A stretch of 45,516 nucleotides of DNA. Source: Streptomyces sp. NRRL F-5123 (GTDB taxonomy: Bacteria > Actinomycetota > Actinomycetes > Streptomycetales > Streptomycetaceae). Below are positions 16,505 through 30,925 of the stretch, piece after piece. The notes under the pieces were generated by a model. It was not told where the DNA came from and ran no database searches. It saw only the letters and a list, made by a program, of their open reading frames with translations. How positions within the stretch are numbered: position 1 is the first letter of the stretch; each line of letters opens with the position of its first letter. The DNA lies in contig NZ_JOHY01000078.1 in NCBI RefSeq assembly GCF_000721495.1, positions 1 through 45,516 on the forward strand, in the 5' to 3' direction. Made by a program: the position numbers and the translations under genes.

Positions 16505-16546
16505 ACGGCCAGTATGCCAAGTCCCCCTGGCGGCGCGGAAAAAGGC

Positions 16547-16577
16547 TTGGAGAGGCGCGGCCCTTCCGCCCTACAGT
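16547..16577 (+). promoter_or_regulatory. Candidate promoter of the Y RNA region
   Basis: TTGGAG (16547-16552), a 19-bp spacer and TACAGT (16572-16577) would place the transcription start at about 16583, where the first structured RNA begins. The spacer is slightly long, so this is a tentative assignment. Confidence 0.35.
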
Positions 16578-16665
16578 GAGGACTGCCGCGAAGCGCGGCC
16601 GGGGGCTCCTTCGAAACCATCGAATAGCAACAGCCTCCGGTTCACGGGTACTCGCAGCACCCTTC
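16578..16665 (+). ncRNA. Probable third Y RNA-like RNA, non-tRNA-like
   Basis: It shares the Ro-stem motifs of the two downstream Y RNAs: GCGAAGCGC (16588-16596) and ACTCGC (16650-16655), where GCGA pairs with TCGC. Instead of a tRNA-like module it has a 9-bp stem (16599-16607 with 16632-16640, one G-U) topped by TTCGA-AACCA-TCGAA (16610-16624). The lower part of the outer stem pairs poorly, so it may be a degenerate or structurally different member. Confidence 0.48.
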
Positions 16666-16668
16666 GGG

Positions 16669-16823
16669 GTCGACAACCGGATTCAGGTGGCAGGCGAAGC
16701 GCAGTACGGGCTTACTTCCCTGGTATTGAGCAGTTGCGGGTTCGAGTCCCGCCGGAGCCTTCAGGCTCCGTCGCTCGGTAGCTCGTACGACCTGCACTCG
16801 CCTGCTTCCTGGCTCCGGTCGGC
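16669..16823 (+). ncRNA. Y RNA with permuted tRNA-like module (YrlA type), copy 1
   Basis: The outer stem is made by 16671-16697 and 16798-16821. Paired blocks are CGAC/GTCG, CGGA/TCCG, CAGG/CCTG and GCAGGCGA/TCGCCTGC, separated by small internal loops, as in Ro-binding stems. Inside, a canonical T-arm GCGGG-TTCGAGT-CCCGC (16736-16752) leads into CGGAGCC (16753-16759), a TTCA loop, and GGCTCCG (16764-16770), a perfect 7-bp acceptor stem. A D-arm-like part (GCTCGGTAGCTC) follows. The tRNA order is thus reversed: 3' half, short loop, 5' half. That is the arrangement expected for bacterial YrlA RNAs, in which the acceptor end is closed and the open end carries the Ro stem. Confidence 0.85.
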
Positions 16824-16871
16824 GCCCCGATCCGGTCGCCTCGCGGCCGGGCCGGCGCATCCGCGCACGGT

Positions 16872-17046
16872 GGGGTCACGACAACTGCACAGGCGCCGCG
16901 AAGCGCAGTGAGGGCATACTTCCACTTCTAATGGGGAGGTCGCGGGTTCGAATCCCGCCGGAGCCGCCCATGGCTCCGTAGCTCAGTGGCAGAGCACCTA
17001 CGTAGCTCTTGCGACCGGTACTCGCGGCGCCTTGCAGGTCGTCCCT
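16872..17046 (+). ncRNA. Y RNA with permuted tRNA-like module (YrlA type), copy 2
   Basis: The outer stem pairs ACGAC (16878-16882) with GTCGT (17038-17042), CTGCA (16885-16889) with TGCAG (17033-17037), and AGGCGCCGCGA (16891-16901) with 17022-17032. It has bulged AA and C on the 5' side, recalling the bulged helix that Ro60 recognises. Inside, the T-arm GCGGG-TTCGAAT-CCCGC (16942-16958) runs into CGGAGCC, a GCCCAT loop, GGCTCCG (16972-16978), TA, and the D-arm GCTC-AGTGGCA-GAGC (16981-16995). It shares GCGAAGCGCAGT and TACTTCC with copy 1. There is no anticodon arm. It ends about 130 bp before the TROVE gene. Confidence 0.88.
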
Positions 17047-17177
17047 CCGCCGACGGCCCGGACATTTCCGTCCAGCCGGTCCACCGGATCCGCGGATTCC
17101 GGATTTCCGCTTTCACTGCGCGAAGTCCCGTATTCCCGCGAGCCGTCGGACCGCGCATTCTCGAAAAGGCAACCGAG

Positions 17178-18764
17178 ATGGCGAAGTTCGCCCGCGCCCG
17201 TTCCGCACCCACCAGTCCCCTCGGCACCACCGGCGCCACGACGACATTCGAGGGCGGCGCCGCTTTCCGGCGCAGCGTGAAGAGCGAGCTGTTCCTCTTC
17301 GCCGCGGTGAACATGGTCGGCGAGGGCTCCTTCTACGAGTCCGGCGACGAGCGCGACACCCGTTTCCGCGAACTCGTGCACGCCGCGACGAAGGCCGACC
17401 CCGACTGGGTCGCGCGCTTCGTGCCGTATCTGCGCGGCGAGATGAACATGCGCTCGGCGGCGATCGTGATGGCCGCCGAGTCCGCGCTCGCCCGCCGCGC
17501 CGGCGGCCTGCGCCGCGAACCGGCCGTGCCCGTACGGAAGATGGTCGCCGACGCGATGCTGCGGGCCGACGAGCCCGCGGAGTTCGTGGCGTACTGGAAG
17601 GCGCGCACCGGCAAGGTGACGCTGCCCGGCGGTGTGCAGCGCGGTGTCGCCGACGCGGTGACCCGCCTGTACACCGAGCGCGCGGCGCTGAAGTACGACG
17701 GCGCCGGGTCCGCGTGGCGGATGGCGGACGTCGTCGCGCTGGCCAAGCCCACCCCTGCGGGCCCGTGGCAGGCCGACCTCTTCGACTACCTCGCCGACCG
17801 GCGCTGGAAGCGGCCCGAGGTGCGGGTGACCGGCCGGCTGCCGGTGCTGGACGCCTACCGGGCGGCGGCCGGGATGCCGGAGGCGGAGCGGCGCGCGTGG
17901 TTCCTCGCGGACCCGGCGCGGCTCGGCACGGCCGGGATGACGTGGGAGCAGCTGTCGAGCCTCGGTCCGATGGACGCGGCCGCGTGGTCGGCGATCGTCC
18001 CGCACATGGGCCTCATGGCGCTGACCCGCAACCTGCGCAACCTCGACGAGGCGGGCGTCGGCGACGACGTCGCCGCCTCGGTCGCGGCGCGGCTGTCCGA
18101 CCCCGAGCAGGTGCGCCGGTCGCGGCAGTTCCCGTTCCGCTTCCTGTCCGCGTACCGCGCGGCGCCGTCGCTGCGCTGGGGCCAGGCCCTGGAGCAGGCA
18201 CTGACCGCCGCGACGGCCAACATCCCGGCGCTGCCGGGCCGCACGCTGGTGCTCGTCGACACGTCCGGGTCGATGGAGGCCCGGGTCTCGGCGAAGAGCA
18301 CGGTGCGGCACGTCGACGTCGGCGCACTGTTCGCGGTCGCGCTCGCGGCCCGCGGCTGCGACGTCGACCTCGTGGGCTTCGCGACGGGGACGTTCACCCA
18401 CCCGCTGGCCAGGGGCGGTTCGGTGCTGCGGCAGGCCGAGGCGTTCTGCGCGCGGGTCGGCGAGGCCGGCCACGGCACGGAGACGGTGGCCGCCCTCCAG
18501 GCGGCCTACCGCGGCCACGACCGTGTCGTCCTCTTCTCCGACATGCAGGCCTTCCGCCACCCCGGCAGGAGCGGCGGCCTGACCGTCTCCCGCGCGGTCC
18601 CGCCCCAGACCCCCTTCTTCGGCGTCAACTCCGCCGGTTACGCCCCCGCAGCCCTCGACACCAGCACCCCCCACCGCTACGAGATCGGCGGTTTCAGCGA
18701 CAAGCTCTTCACGATGATCGCCCTTCTGGCCCGCGGTCGCAGCACGGCCTGGCCCTGGGAGTAG
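17178..18764 (+). CDS. rsr: TROVE-domain Ro60 homologue (Rsr-like) with vWA domain
   Basis: A 528-aa RNA-binding ring protein. The first 310 residues are TROVE HEAT-like repeats (for example FAAVNMVGEGSFYESGDERD, RFRELVHAATKADPDWVARF, GEMNMRSAAIVMAAESALA). The C-terminal vWA domain has an intact MIDAS start DTSGSME at residues 361-367. Ro60/Rsr binds Y RNAs and the ends of misfolded or decaying RNAs, and in bacteria it can work with polynucleotide phosphorylase. AAAAGG precedes the ATG at 17178. The tandem Y RNAs directly upstream on the same strand make the Ro/Y RNA assignment strong. The gene ends at a MITE-like inverted repeat that may serve as its terminator. Confidence 0.92.
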   Translation: MAKFARARSAPTSPLGTTGATTTFEGGAAFRRSVKSELFLFAAVNMVGEGSFYESGDERDTRFRELVHAATKADPDWVARFVPYLRGEMNMRSAAIVMAAESALARRAGGLRREPAVPVRKMVADAMLRADEPAEFVAYWKARTGKVTLPGGVQRGVADAVTRLYTERAALKYDGAGSAWRMADVVALAKPTPAGPWQADLFDYLADRRWKRPEVRVTGRLPVLDAYRAAAGMPEAERRAWFLADPARLGTAGMTWEQLSSLGPMDAAAWSAIVPHMGLMALTRNLRNLDEAGVGDDVAASVAARLSDPEQVRRSRQFPFRFLSAYRAAPSLRWGQALEQALTAATANIPALPGRTLVLVDTSGSMEARVSAKSTVRHVDVGALFAVALAARGCDVDLVGFATGTFTHPLARGGSVLRQAEAFCARVGEAGHGTETVAALQAAYRGHDRVVLFSDMQAFRHPGRSGGLTVSRAVPPQTPFFGVNSAGYAPAALDTSTPHRYEIGGFSDKLFTMIALLARGRSTAWPWE

Positions 18765-18803
18765 CCCCCGTCGGCGGGGGCGGTGCACGCTGCCGCCCCC
18801 GCC

Positions 18804-18877
18804 AGGCCGTGTCTGACAAATCCCGTCTGGCTGGCGGCGCCCTGCGGGCGGACGACGCCATTTGTCAGACACGGCCT
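18804..18877. mobile_element. 74-bp MITE-like inverted-repeat element
   Basis: Perfect 18-bp terminal inverted repeats, AGGCCGTGTCTGACAAAT and its complement (18804-18821 and 18860-18877), flank a 38-bp core. The flanks read CCAG on the left and CTAG on the right, where the CTAG supplies the TAG stop of the minus-strand gene. The ends resemble IS termini but the IS family is not assigned. It lies between converging genes and would form a strong hairpin in either transcript. Confidence 0.72.
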
Positions 18878-19283
18878 AGCGCGGCCAGTCCACCGTGCCG
18901 CGGAAGACGAGGAAACCCGTGACGACGAGGACGGGGGCGGCCAGGGCGAGGAGGGCGCGGGCGGGGCGGAGGCGTTCGCGCGGCGGCAGGAGCCAGCTGG
19001 TGAGGAGGACGGCTGCCGCGGCGCACAGGGCGGTCTGGAGGAGGTGGAAGCCGTGGGTGAAGCTGCGGTCGAAGGCTTCGGCCTCGGGGCCGTCGAGCGG
19101 GTCGCCGCTCATCGCGGACATGGCGGCGTAGAGCCGGACGAGGGCCGCGAGGGGGAAGGTGACCAGGGTCGAGATCAGGGGGGCCGGGCCGTAGGGGCCC
19201 GGGGCGCGGCGGCGCGGTTCCGGGGGGCCGGGGCAGGACTCGGCCTCGTCCGGACCGCCGTACGGGACAGGGTGGTTGTCCAT
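18876..19283 (-). CDS. Small membrane protein, unknown function
   Basis: A 135-aa protein with a Pro-rich cytoplasmic N-terminus (MDNHPVPYGGPDEAESCPG) and three hydrophobic segments (LISTLVTFPLAALVRLYAAM; LLQTALCAAAAVLLTSWLL; ALLALAAPVLVVTGFLVF). No motif suggests a function. The ATG at 19283 follows GGAGGG closely; a GTG at 19319 is an alternative. The stop codon lies in the CTAG at the edge of the MITE-like element. Confidence 0.65.
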   Translation of the reverse strand: MDNHPVPYGGPDEAESCPGPPEPRRRAPGPYGPAPLISTLVTFPLAALVRLYAAMSAMSGDPLDGPEAEAFDRSFTHGFHLLQTALCAAAAVLLTSWLLPPRERLRPARALLALAAPVLVVTGFLVFRGTVDWPR

Positions 19284-30630: not shown

Positions 30631-30704
30631 GCCCTTGTAGCTCAGTCGGCCAGAGCACCTGTCTTGTAAACAGGGGGTCGTCGGTTCGAATCCGACCGGG
30701 GGCT
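30631..30704 (+). tRNA. tRNA-Thr (anticodon UGU)
   Basis: A complete 74-nt cloverleaf. The acceptor GCCCTTG pairs with CGGGGGC (two G-U), the D-arm is GCTC...GAGC, the anticodon stem CCTGT/ACAGG encloses the loop CTTGTAA with anticodon TGT, the variable region is GGGTC, and the T-arm is GTCGG-TTCGAAT-CCGAC. The discriminator is T and CCA is not encoded. Confidence 0.95.
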
Positions 30705-30925
30705 CGTACAGGAGGTTCCGCCCCACGCGGGCGGGGCCTCCTTCTGCGTCCGGGGGTGACGAAAAAGGCGCCCGGGGCCTGGTGACAAAAGGTGGAACGT
30801 GCAGGTAGCGTCACCGGGGAGTCCGCGTACCACCGGGCTCGACCATCGAAGCGGCACCGAAAAATCTGCTTCCTTTACTCGGATCGTCCGGCACGTTCCT
30901 GCCGGTGAAGGGATTGCGTACAACC

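Follow-up and report, generated by a model that had tools for sequence, protein, structure and literature searches.

Three tandem RNAs upstream of a Ro60-family gene in Streptomyces sp. NRRL F-5123 are probably YrlA-like Y RNAs, one of them without a tRNA-like module

What are the three structured RNAs that precede a Ro60-family (TROVE) gene in Streptomyces sp. NRRL F-5123, and do their differences mean different roles? The stretch of DNA analysed here, referred to as the window, is 45.5 kb long, and the three RNAs (RNA1 to RNA3) lie on its plus strand ahead of the gene at 17178-18764. The original prediction read them as bacterial Y RNAs of the YrlA type. This reading was supported, and judged from sequence they are very probably YrlA-like Y RNAs beside Ro60. 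It is the best reading because the product of the neighbouring gene has a Ro60 fold, the permuted tRNA-like module covaries, YrlA is the best-matching RNA family (though below its cut-off), and such RNAs are also found upstream of TROVE genes in relatives.

The predicted TROVE gene was present downstream of the RNAs as proposed and encodes 528 amino acids. Its product gave a partial match above the cut-off to the Pfam TROVE domain and a full-length fold match to Ro60. D361, S363 and S365 (DxSxS), which we take to be the metal site of the vWA domain, were invariant in 29 homologues. The product is predicted to be a Ro60/Rsr protein comprising a TROVE ring and a vWA domain with its metal site. 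The best sequence matches among solved structures were 9kop and 9l5y ('Ro60 dimer from Thermus phage phiLo'); the latter is a phage protein with 26% identity to the window protein in the structural alignment.

RNA1 (16585-16658, core 16588-16655) is the member without a tRNA-like module. RNA2 occupies 16676-16819 when its extended closing helix is included (core 16694-16801), and RNA3 (16894-17029, core 16898-17025), which has the complete module, ends at its core 152 nt before the TROVE gene. The T-arm and 7-bp acceptor stem proposed for RNA2 and RNA3 were found in both. In RNA2 the T-arm (16736-16752, loop UUCGAGU) forms 5 of 5 pairs, and the acceptor stem CGGAGCC/GGCUCCG (16753-16770) is closed by the 4-nt loop UUCA. 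In RNA3 the T-arm (16942-16958) has the loop UUCGAAU, and the same acceptor stem (16959-16978) is closed by the 6-nt loop GCCCAU. A D-arm had been predicted for both; RNA3 has one (GCUC-AGUGGCA-GAGC, 16981-16995), whereas in RNA2 of this genome the D-arm expected 3' of the acceptor is missing.

For comparison, orthologous arrays were taken from the 12 loci with a close TROVE gene (the window, L001-L007, L013, L015, L016 and L053). In all three RNA classes a closing helix with GCGA/UCGC leads through an asymmetric internal loop to an 8-bp upper helix, which is followed by U(A/C)CUUC in 30 of 32 RNAs. The upper Ro stem forms 8 of 8 pairs both in RNA2 (16704-16788; 16704-16711 with 16781-16788) and in RNA3 (16908-17012; 16908-16915 with 17005-17012). 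The two motifs first noticed as common to the three RNAs were confirmed at their positions, GCGAAGCGC at 16588, 16694 and 16898 and ACTCGC at 16650, 16796 and 17020, but the GCGA/TCGC pairing, which had been assigned to the top of the Ro stem, belongs to its closing, lower part. As evidence on its own the nonamer GCGAAGCGC was rejected, as it occurs 6 times in the window (both strands) against 2.33 expected, and 6 of 100 shuffles reached 6.

At a fixed register the upper helix was 91.9% paired in 31 of the 32 RNAs (the 34-nt RNA1 of L013 was left out), compared with a mean of 73.4% and a maximum of 82.3% over 2000 exchanges of the 3' strands. An alignment of 17 of the 22 RNA2 and RNA3 sequences, omitting the window RNA2 and the RNA3 of L003, L005, L015 and L016, was paired in 97.1% of cells; shuffling lowered this to 80.4% (sd 1.1) and sliding to 34-45%. 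Both sides had changed in 20 of its 34 pairs, bearing out the compensatory changes anticipated among relatives, and the acceptor (helix 4) covaried across species with both-side changes in 6 of 7 pairs. RNAalifold, run without a given structure, recovered the RNA2 stems with 22 of 47 pairs compensated and extended the RNA2 closing helix (alignment columns 10 to 196) by 13 pairs past the 8 modelled. For RNA3 it recovered the closing helix, upper helix, T-arm and part of the D-arm (14 of 27 pairs compensated); the acceptor was not recovered from this alignment, probably because eroded copies break it. Both stems of RNA1 were also found. Across 110 distinct matches in relatives, in an alignment fitted to the model and including two off-target matches, 93.6% of cells were paired against 67.8% when shuffled, with both-side changes in 28 of 34 pairs. 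The internal-loop G-U pair fails in 60 rows of that set and is therefore a feature of this clade. The minimum-energy fold of the window RNA3 kept the closing helix, T-arm and acceptor.

Covariance models connected the three RNAs with one another. A model of 9 RNA1 orthologues, searched against the window at E up to 10, recovered the window RNA1, one of its training rows, at 64.0 bits, as well as RNA3 at 47.1 bits and RNA2 at 32.9 bits, and no further place; it links the three independently because RNA2 and RNA3 were not used in building it. The RNA2/3 model gave 133.6 bits for RNA3 (a training row) and 98.6 bits for RNA2 (not one); the tRNA-Thr region, with 20.1 bits, came next in the window, along with two chance hits. 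Over the whole genome at E up to 0.001, this model added RNA1 (36.3 bits) and a tandem tRNA-Asn pair (47.1 bits). The YrlA search called for by the original prediction succeeded in part: Rfam YrlA (RF02553) was the best family for RNA3 (41.2 bits, on 16935-16998) and RNA2 (26.1 bits), with both scores below the gathering cut-off of 69 bits. An Rfam E-value as proof of a Y RNA was rejected, since a match of 42.0 bits proved to be the tandem tRNA-Asn pair. YrlA matches of about 42 bits recur in relatives' genomes and could inflate any YrlA count.

Both models were then run over 76 TROVE loci, the window included (265,035 bases); the set excludes G104:C518 (216 bases from a contig end), the short fragments G046, G065:C84 and G124, duplicate records and, where a gene was split, its second piece. 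At least one such RNA was found at 68 of the 76 loci, at least two at 34, at least three at 12 and four at one. Of the 117 merged matches in the sequence around the 76 genes, 115 share the strand of TROVE and precede it by no more than 1 kb, and at the 68 loci the gap between the end of the proximal RNA and the beginning of the TROVE protein match is 36-272 nt (median 77). The triplet had been considered unusual, a view weakened by the finding of two or more RNAs at 34 of the 68 loci that have any; tandem sets are common among these actinobacteria, neither unusual nor unique. By a strict rule requiring UUCRA in the loop, the tRNA module was complete in 62 of 115 RNAs and absent from 32 (an overcount by at least two), and 15 of the 34 multi-RNA loci mixed both kinds. 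Counted by locus, a complete module was present in 44 of 68 and no T-arm in 12 of 68, the latter figure being too high since L078 and L088 have the module with a variant loop. Where loci of family f3 adjoin TROVE, a T-arm-less RNA was scored by this rule in 6 of the 11 loci with an RNA (L023-L026, L030, L031). Elsewhere in the Streptomyces genome itself, a second TROVE gene of 47% identity (G000:C40:49989-51596) has a weak match to a Y RNA without the tRNA part just upstream (L052 862-965, 26.0 bits).

The Ro-stem pattern of the relatives was found at 31 loci in predicted viral contigs, to which the window-type pattern added one (L148). A TROVE gene was present at 28 of these 32 loci, the remaining four being cut near the motif. 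Not all are independent, as the L148 array equals that of L005 and the L122 RNA equals that of L126. One predicted viral contig (L123) had four Y RNA matches in tandem.

Within the orthologous arrays, three RNAs were present in 9 of the 12 loci, two in 2 and one in 1. The tRNA module was absent from RNA1 in 10 of 10 orthologues, the L013 copy being shortened to 34 nt, and because of this uniform absence the original view that RNA1 had lost its tRNA mimic could not be upheld: loss and original absence are indistinguishable. All 11 RNA2 orthologues retain the complete 5-bp T-stem; 10 of them form 6 or more of the 7 acceptor pairs, and the D-stem is likewise present in 10. For RNA3, 10 of 11 copies have a T-arm with 4 or more of its 5 pairs together with an acceptor with 6 or more of its 7, and 8 of 11 have the usual D-arm, that of L003 being read by eye; L005 has another hairpin in its place, L015 has none, and the L016 copy is without the module. 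The loop closing the acceptor was 2 to 12 nt long across the 21 RNA2 and RNA3 sequences with a T-arm. RNA3 of L003 (2303-2452) bears one more hairpin, CACCUC/GAGGUG, 3' of the D-arm, at the position of a tRNA anticodon arm (by eye). No locus of the 12 had lost both mimics (by eye), the weakest being L005, where the RNA2 acceptor, in the register used for scoring, forms 5 of 7 pairs and the RNA3 D-arm is replaced. No significance was found for the retention of at least one complete mimic at every one of the 12 loci, because damage to 1 of 11 RNA2 and 3 of 11 RNA3 copies predicts well under one double loss by chance. The RNAs belong to a known class, and the mixed tandem set is conserved, with the tRNA piece kept, damaged or left out.

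Several observations weigh against the identification as Y RNAs of the YrlA type. By the gathering rule RNA2 and RNA3 are not members of RF02553, whose cut-off was reached in none of 150 genomes. The second YrlA match in the Streptomyces genome (42.0 bits) consists of identical tRNA-Asn genes in tandem (G000:C72:14905-15018, L051), and since the same pair scores 47.1 bits with the RNA2/3 model, a tRNA-like score alone proves nothing. Evidence from RNA1 is modest. In an alignment of 9 of the 10 RNA1 sequences, the window's among them and L013 left out, 97.2% of cells were paired against 93.0% when shuffled, but both sides changed in only 3 of 16 pairs (reached by 6 of 500 shuffles) and the pair-type count was reached by 81 of 500; little covariation is visible because conservation leaves little to see. 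The minimum-energy fold of the window RNA3 was without the upper Ro stem and D-arm, and the RNA2 D-arm is missing only in the window genome, 1 of the 11 orthologues. No such RNA was found nearby at 8 of the 76 TROVE loci, and the weakest matches in the survey (L023, L026, L030, L031; 21-23 bits), retained because their sequences show the Ro motif, are barely above the tRNA-Thr region of the window. Finally, RNAs of family f3 with a Ro stem and tRNA-like module (L105, L106, L108, L109, L112-L114, L116) lie on other contigs than TROVE matches or megabases from them. In the single-contig genome G092, for example, the RNA is at 7.76 Mb and the sole TROVE match at 0.36 Mb, and the neighbours of L106, as read on L041, which is the same place, are a K+ transporter and an arabinofuranosidase.

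If the three are Y RNAs, they may nevertheless be redundant copies that repeated duplication and recombination maintain, without any division of labour. This variant keeps the same identity for the RNAs, and we regard it as a serious possibility, if a slightly unlikely one. Close relatives differ in copy number (3, 2, 1), L016 is without RNA1, and the one RNA of L053, aligned as RNA3, stands directly behind the promoter. The probable array promoter of the window is a -10-like hexamer, TACAGT, at 16572-16577 on the plus strand. All 12 orthologous loci, among them L016 (without RNA1) and L053 (without RNA1 and RNA2), have a TAnnnT hexamer 9-10 nt 5' of their first GCGA, which fits a single promoter with loss of units by recombination. 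No convincing -35 element was seen by eye; an A-rich GGAAAT-like element about 30 nt upstream of the -10 (window 16538-16544) was noted by eye in most of the 12 promoters. The window RNA2 and RNA3 have an identical acceptor sequence, which in L001 occurs only in RNA3, and this suggests gene conversion. On the other hand, the triplet with a first member lacking the tRNA part was kept in 9 of 12 orthologous loci, for which shared descent could also account.

A cis-acting role was also considered, in which the three structures form a leader of the TROVE mRNA, for Ro60 autoregulation or tRNA sensing, and are not free small RNAs. The RNAs are on the strand of the gene, 5' of it and behind one probable promoter, and the short distance from the proximal RNA to the TROVE match at the 68 loci also suits a leader. 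We consider it improbable in view of array lengths that range from 1 to 4 and of the f3 RNAs sited where there is no TROVE match; the length of the closed RNA2 helix would likewise suit an excised RNA. A leader role and a free small RNA role could coexist. At the other end of the gene, a 31-nt inverted repeat (window 18797-18884, 87% complementary, arms 26 nt apart) begins 32 nt past the TROVE stop and is a candidate terminator or element end.

The RNAs run from T-arm through two acceptor strands to D-arm, the order of permuted tRNA genes, and NCCA immediately 3' of the acceptor 3' strand, inside the closing loop, was seen in 3 of 21 RNAs (L013 RNA2, L006 RNA3, L053 RNA3), where, like a tRNA end, it may be a trace of tRNA-gene origin. 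That the RNAs are merely what is left of tRNA genes (a tandem pair in decay, a tRNA gene in permuted form, or debris left by a mobile element at its attachment site) is hardly credible, even with a tandem tRNA-Asn pair reproducing the same order and 42.0 bits on YrlA. Against it, 18 of 21, those of the window included, do not have NCCA, and 20 of 21, among them the window RNA2 and RNA3, have no 5-bp hairpin with a 7-nt loop after the acceptor (the exception, L005 RNA3, has a GC hairpin at the D-arm place). The acceptor pairs also covary across species, and the Ro stem is conserved outside the tRNA part. With up to 3 mismatches allowed, the rest of the genome beyond the array gave no match to the acceptor and D-arm piece and a single one, at 3 mismatches, to the T-arm and acceptor piece. 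ARAGORN reported only tRNA-Thr 30631-30705 in the window and no contiguous cloverleaf at the RNAs.

The preferred reading, that of YrlA-like Y RNAs, agrees with what characterizes YrlA (RF02553; Salmonella and others), namely a terminal stem and a permuted module of T-arm, closed acceptor and D-arm, adjoining a Ro60-family gene. A paired terminal stem is present in all three RNAs, and the locus has the permuted module through RNA3, RNA2 being without the D-arm and RNA1 without any of it. Unlike YrlA, the window RNAs score below the Rfam cut-off, RNA2 has a closing helix longer than the 6 outer pairs of the YrlA model, and the RNAs are upstream of the Ro gene in three copies, one without a tRNA part. 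Likely Y RNAs near Ro60 were reportedly found by Chen in 2014 in over 250 species, with at least one per species bearing a tRNA domain. No paper on Streptomyces Y RNA arrays was recognised by title or abstract in the CC0, CC BY and CC BY-SA literature, and absence from print is not claimed.

According to earlier studies, the basal stem of Y RNAs in Salmonella and Deinococcus binds the Ro60 homologue, YrlA has a tRNA-like domain, and the exoribonuclease PNPase is tethered (PMC8394870, PMC7790460, PMC9879122, PMC4726728). The Salmonella yrlB-yrlA pair of the rsr-yrlBA-rtcBA operon resembles the window in having tandem Y RNAs adjoining Ro60; it comprises only two RNAs, which lie on the downstream side of rsr and are controlled by RtcR and sigma-54 (PMC9879122). 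With the Deinococcus radiodurans Rsr/Y RNA/PNPase complex, RYPER (PMC8394870, PMC4726728), a PNPase link of the window RNAs is suggested by analogy only.

On this basis the locus would be a Ro60 ribonucleoprotein operon, in which one promoter is followed by three tandem Y RNAs and then the Ro60 gene. Transcription would start from the -10 at 16572 and be followed by processing. Each RNA would offer its paired ends (closing helix, internal loop, upper helix and U(A/C)CUUC) to Ro60. The tRNA-like body of RNA2 and RNA3, with its T-arm, self-closed acceptor stem and, in RNA3, D-arm, would carry the Ro stem at the position of the anticodon arm and might tether a partner, by analogy PNPase, so steering the degradation of structured RNA. 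This tether model could equally well hold or fail. RNA1, consisting of the Ro-binding part only, might be a plain occupant or gate of Ro60; such a division of labour between RNA1 and RNA2/RNA3 is a tentative and rather unlikely proposal, drawn from the known systems. Doubtful to a like extent is the idea that the array acts as a dosage dial for Ro60, in which the Y RNA without a tRNA part competes with the tRNA-mimic Y RNAs for the Ro60 ring and their ratio sets the coupling to the nuclease, with lineages retuning it by deleting, eroding or converting units and f3 by mimics away from Ro60. More generally, it is plausible that the RNAs form a diversified set of Ro effectors, as originally suggested.

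These data indicate that the Rfam YrlA cut-off misses this actinobacterial branch, and the tandem tRNA-Asn pair, which below the cut-off looks like a YrlA member, serves as a useful negative control. What deserves attention is that arrays mix the two kinds, that the tRNA mimic has eroded repeatedly and that one family (f3) has mimics unlinked to TROVE. Tandem sets with and without the tRNA mimic amount to a natural experiment on the function of the Y RNA tRNA domain.

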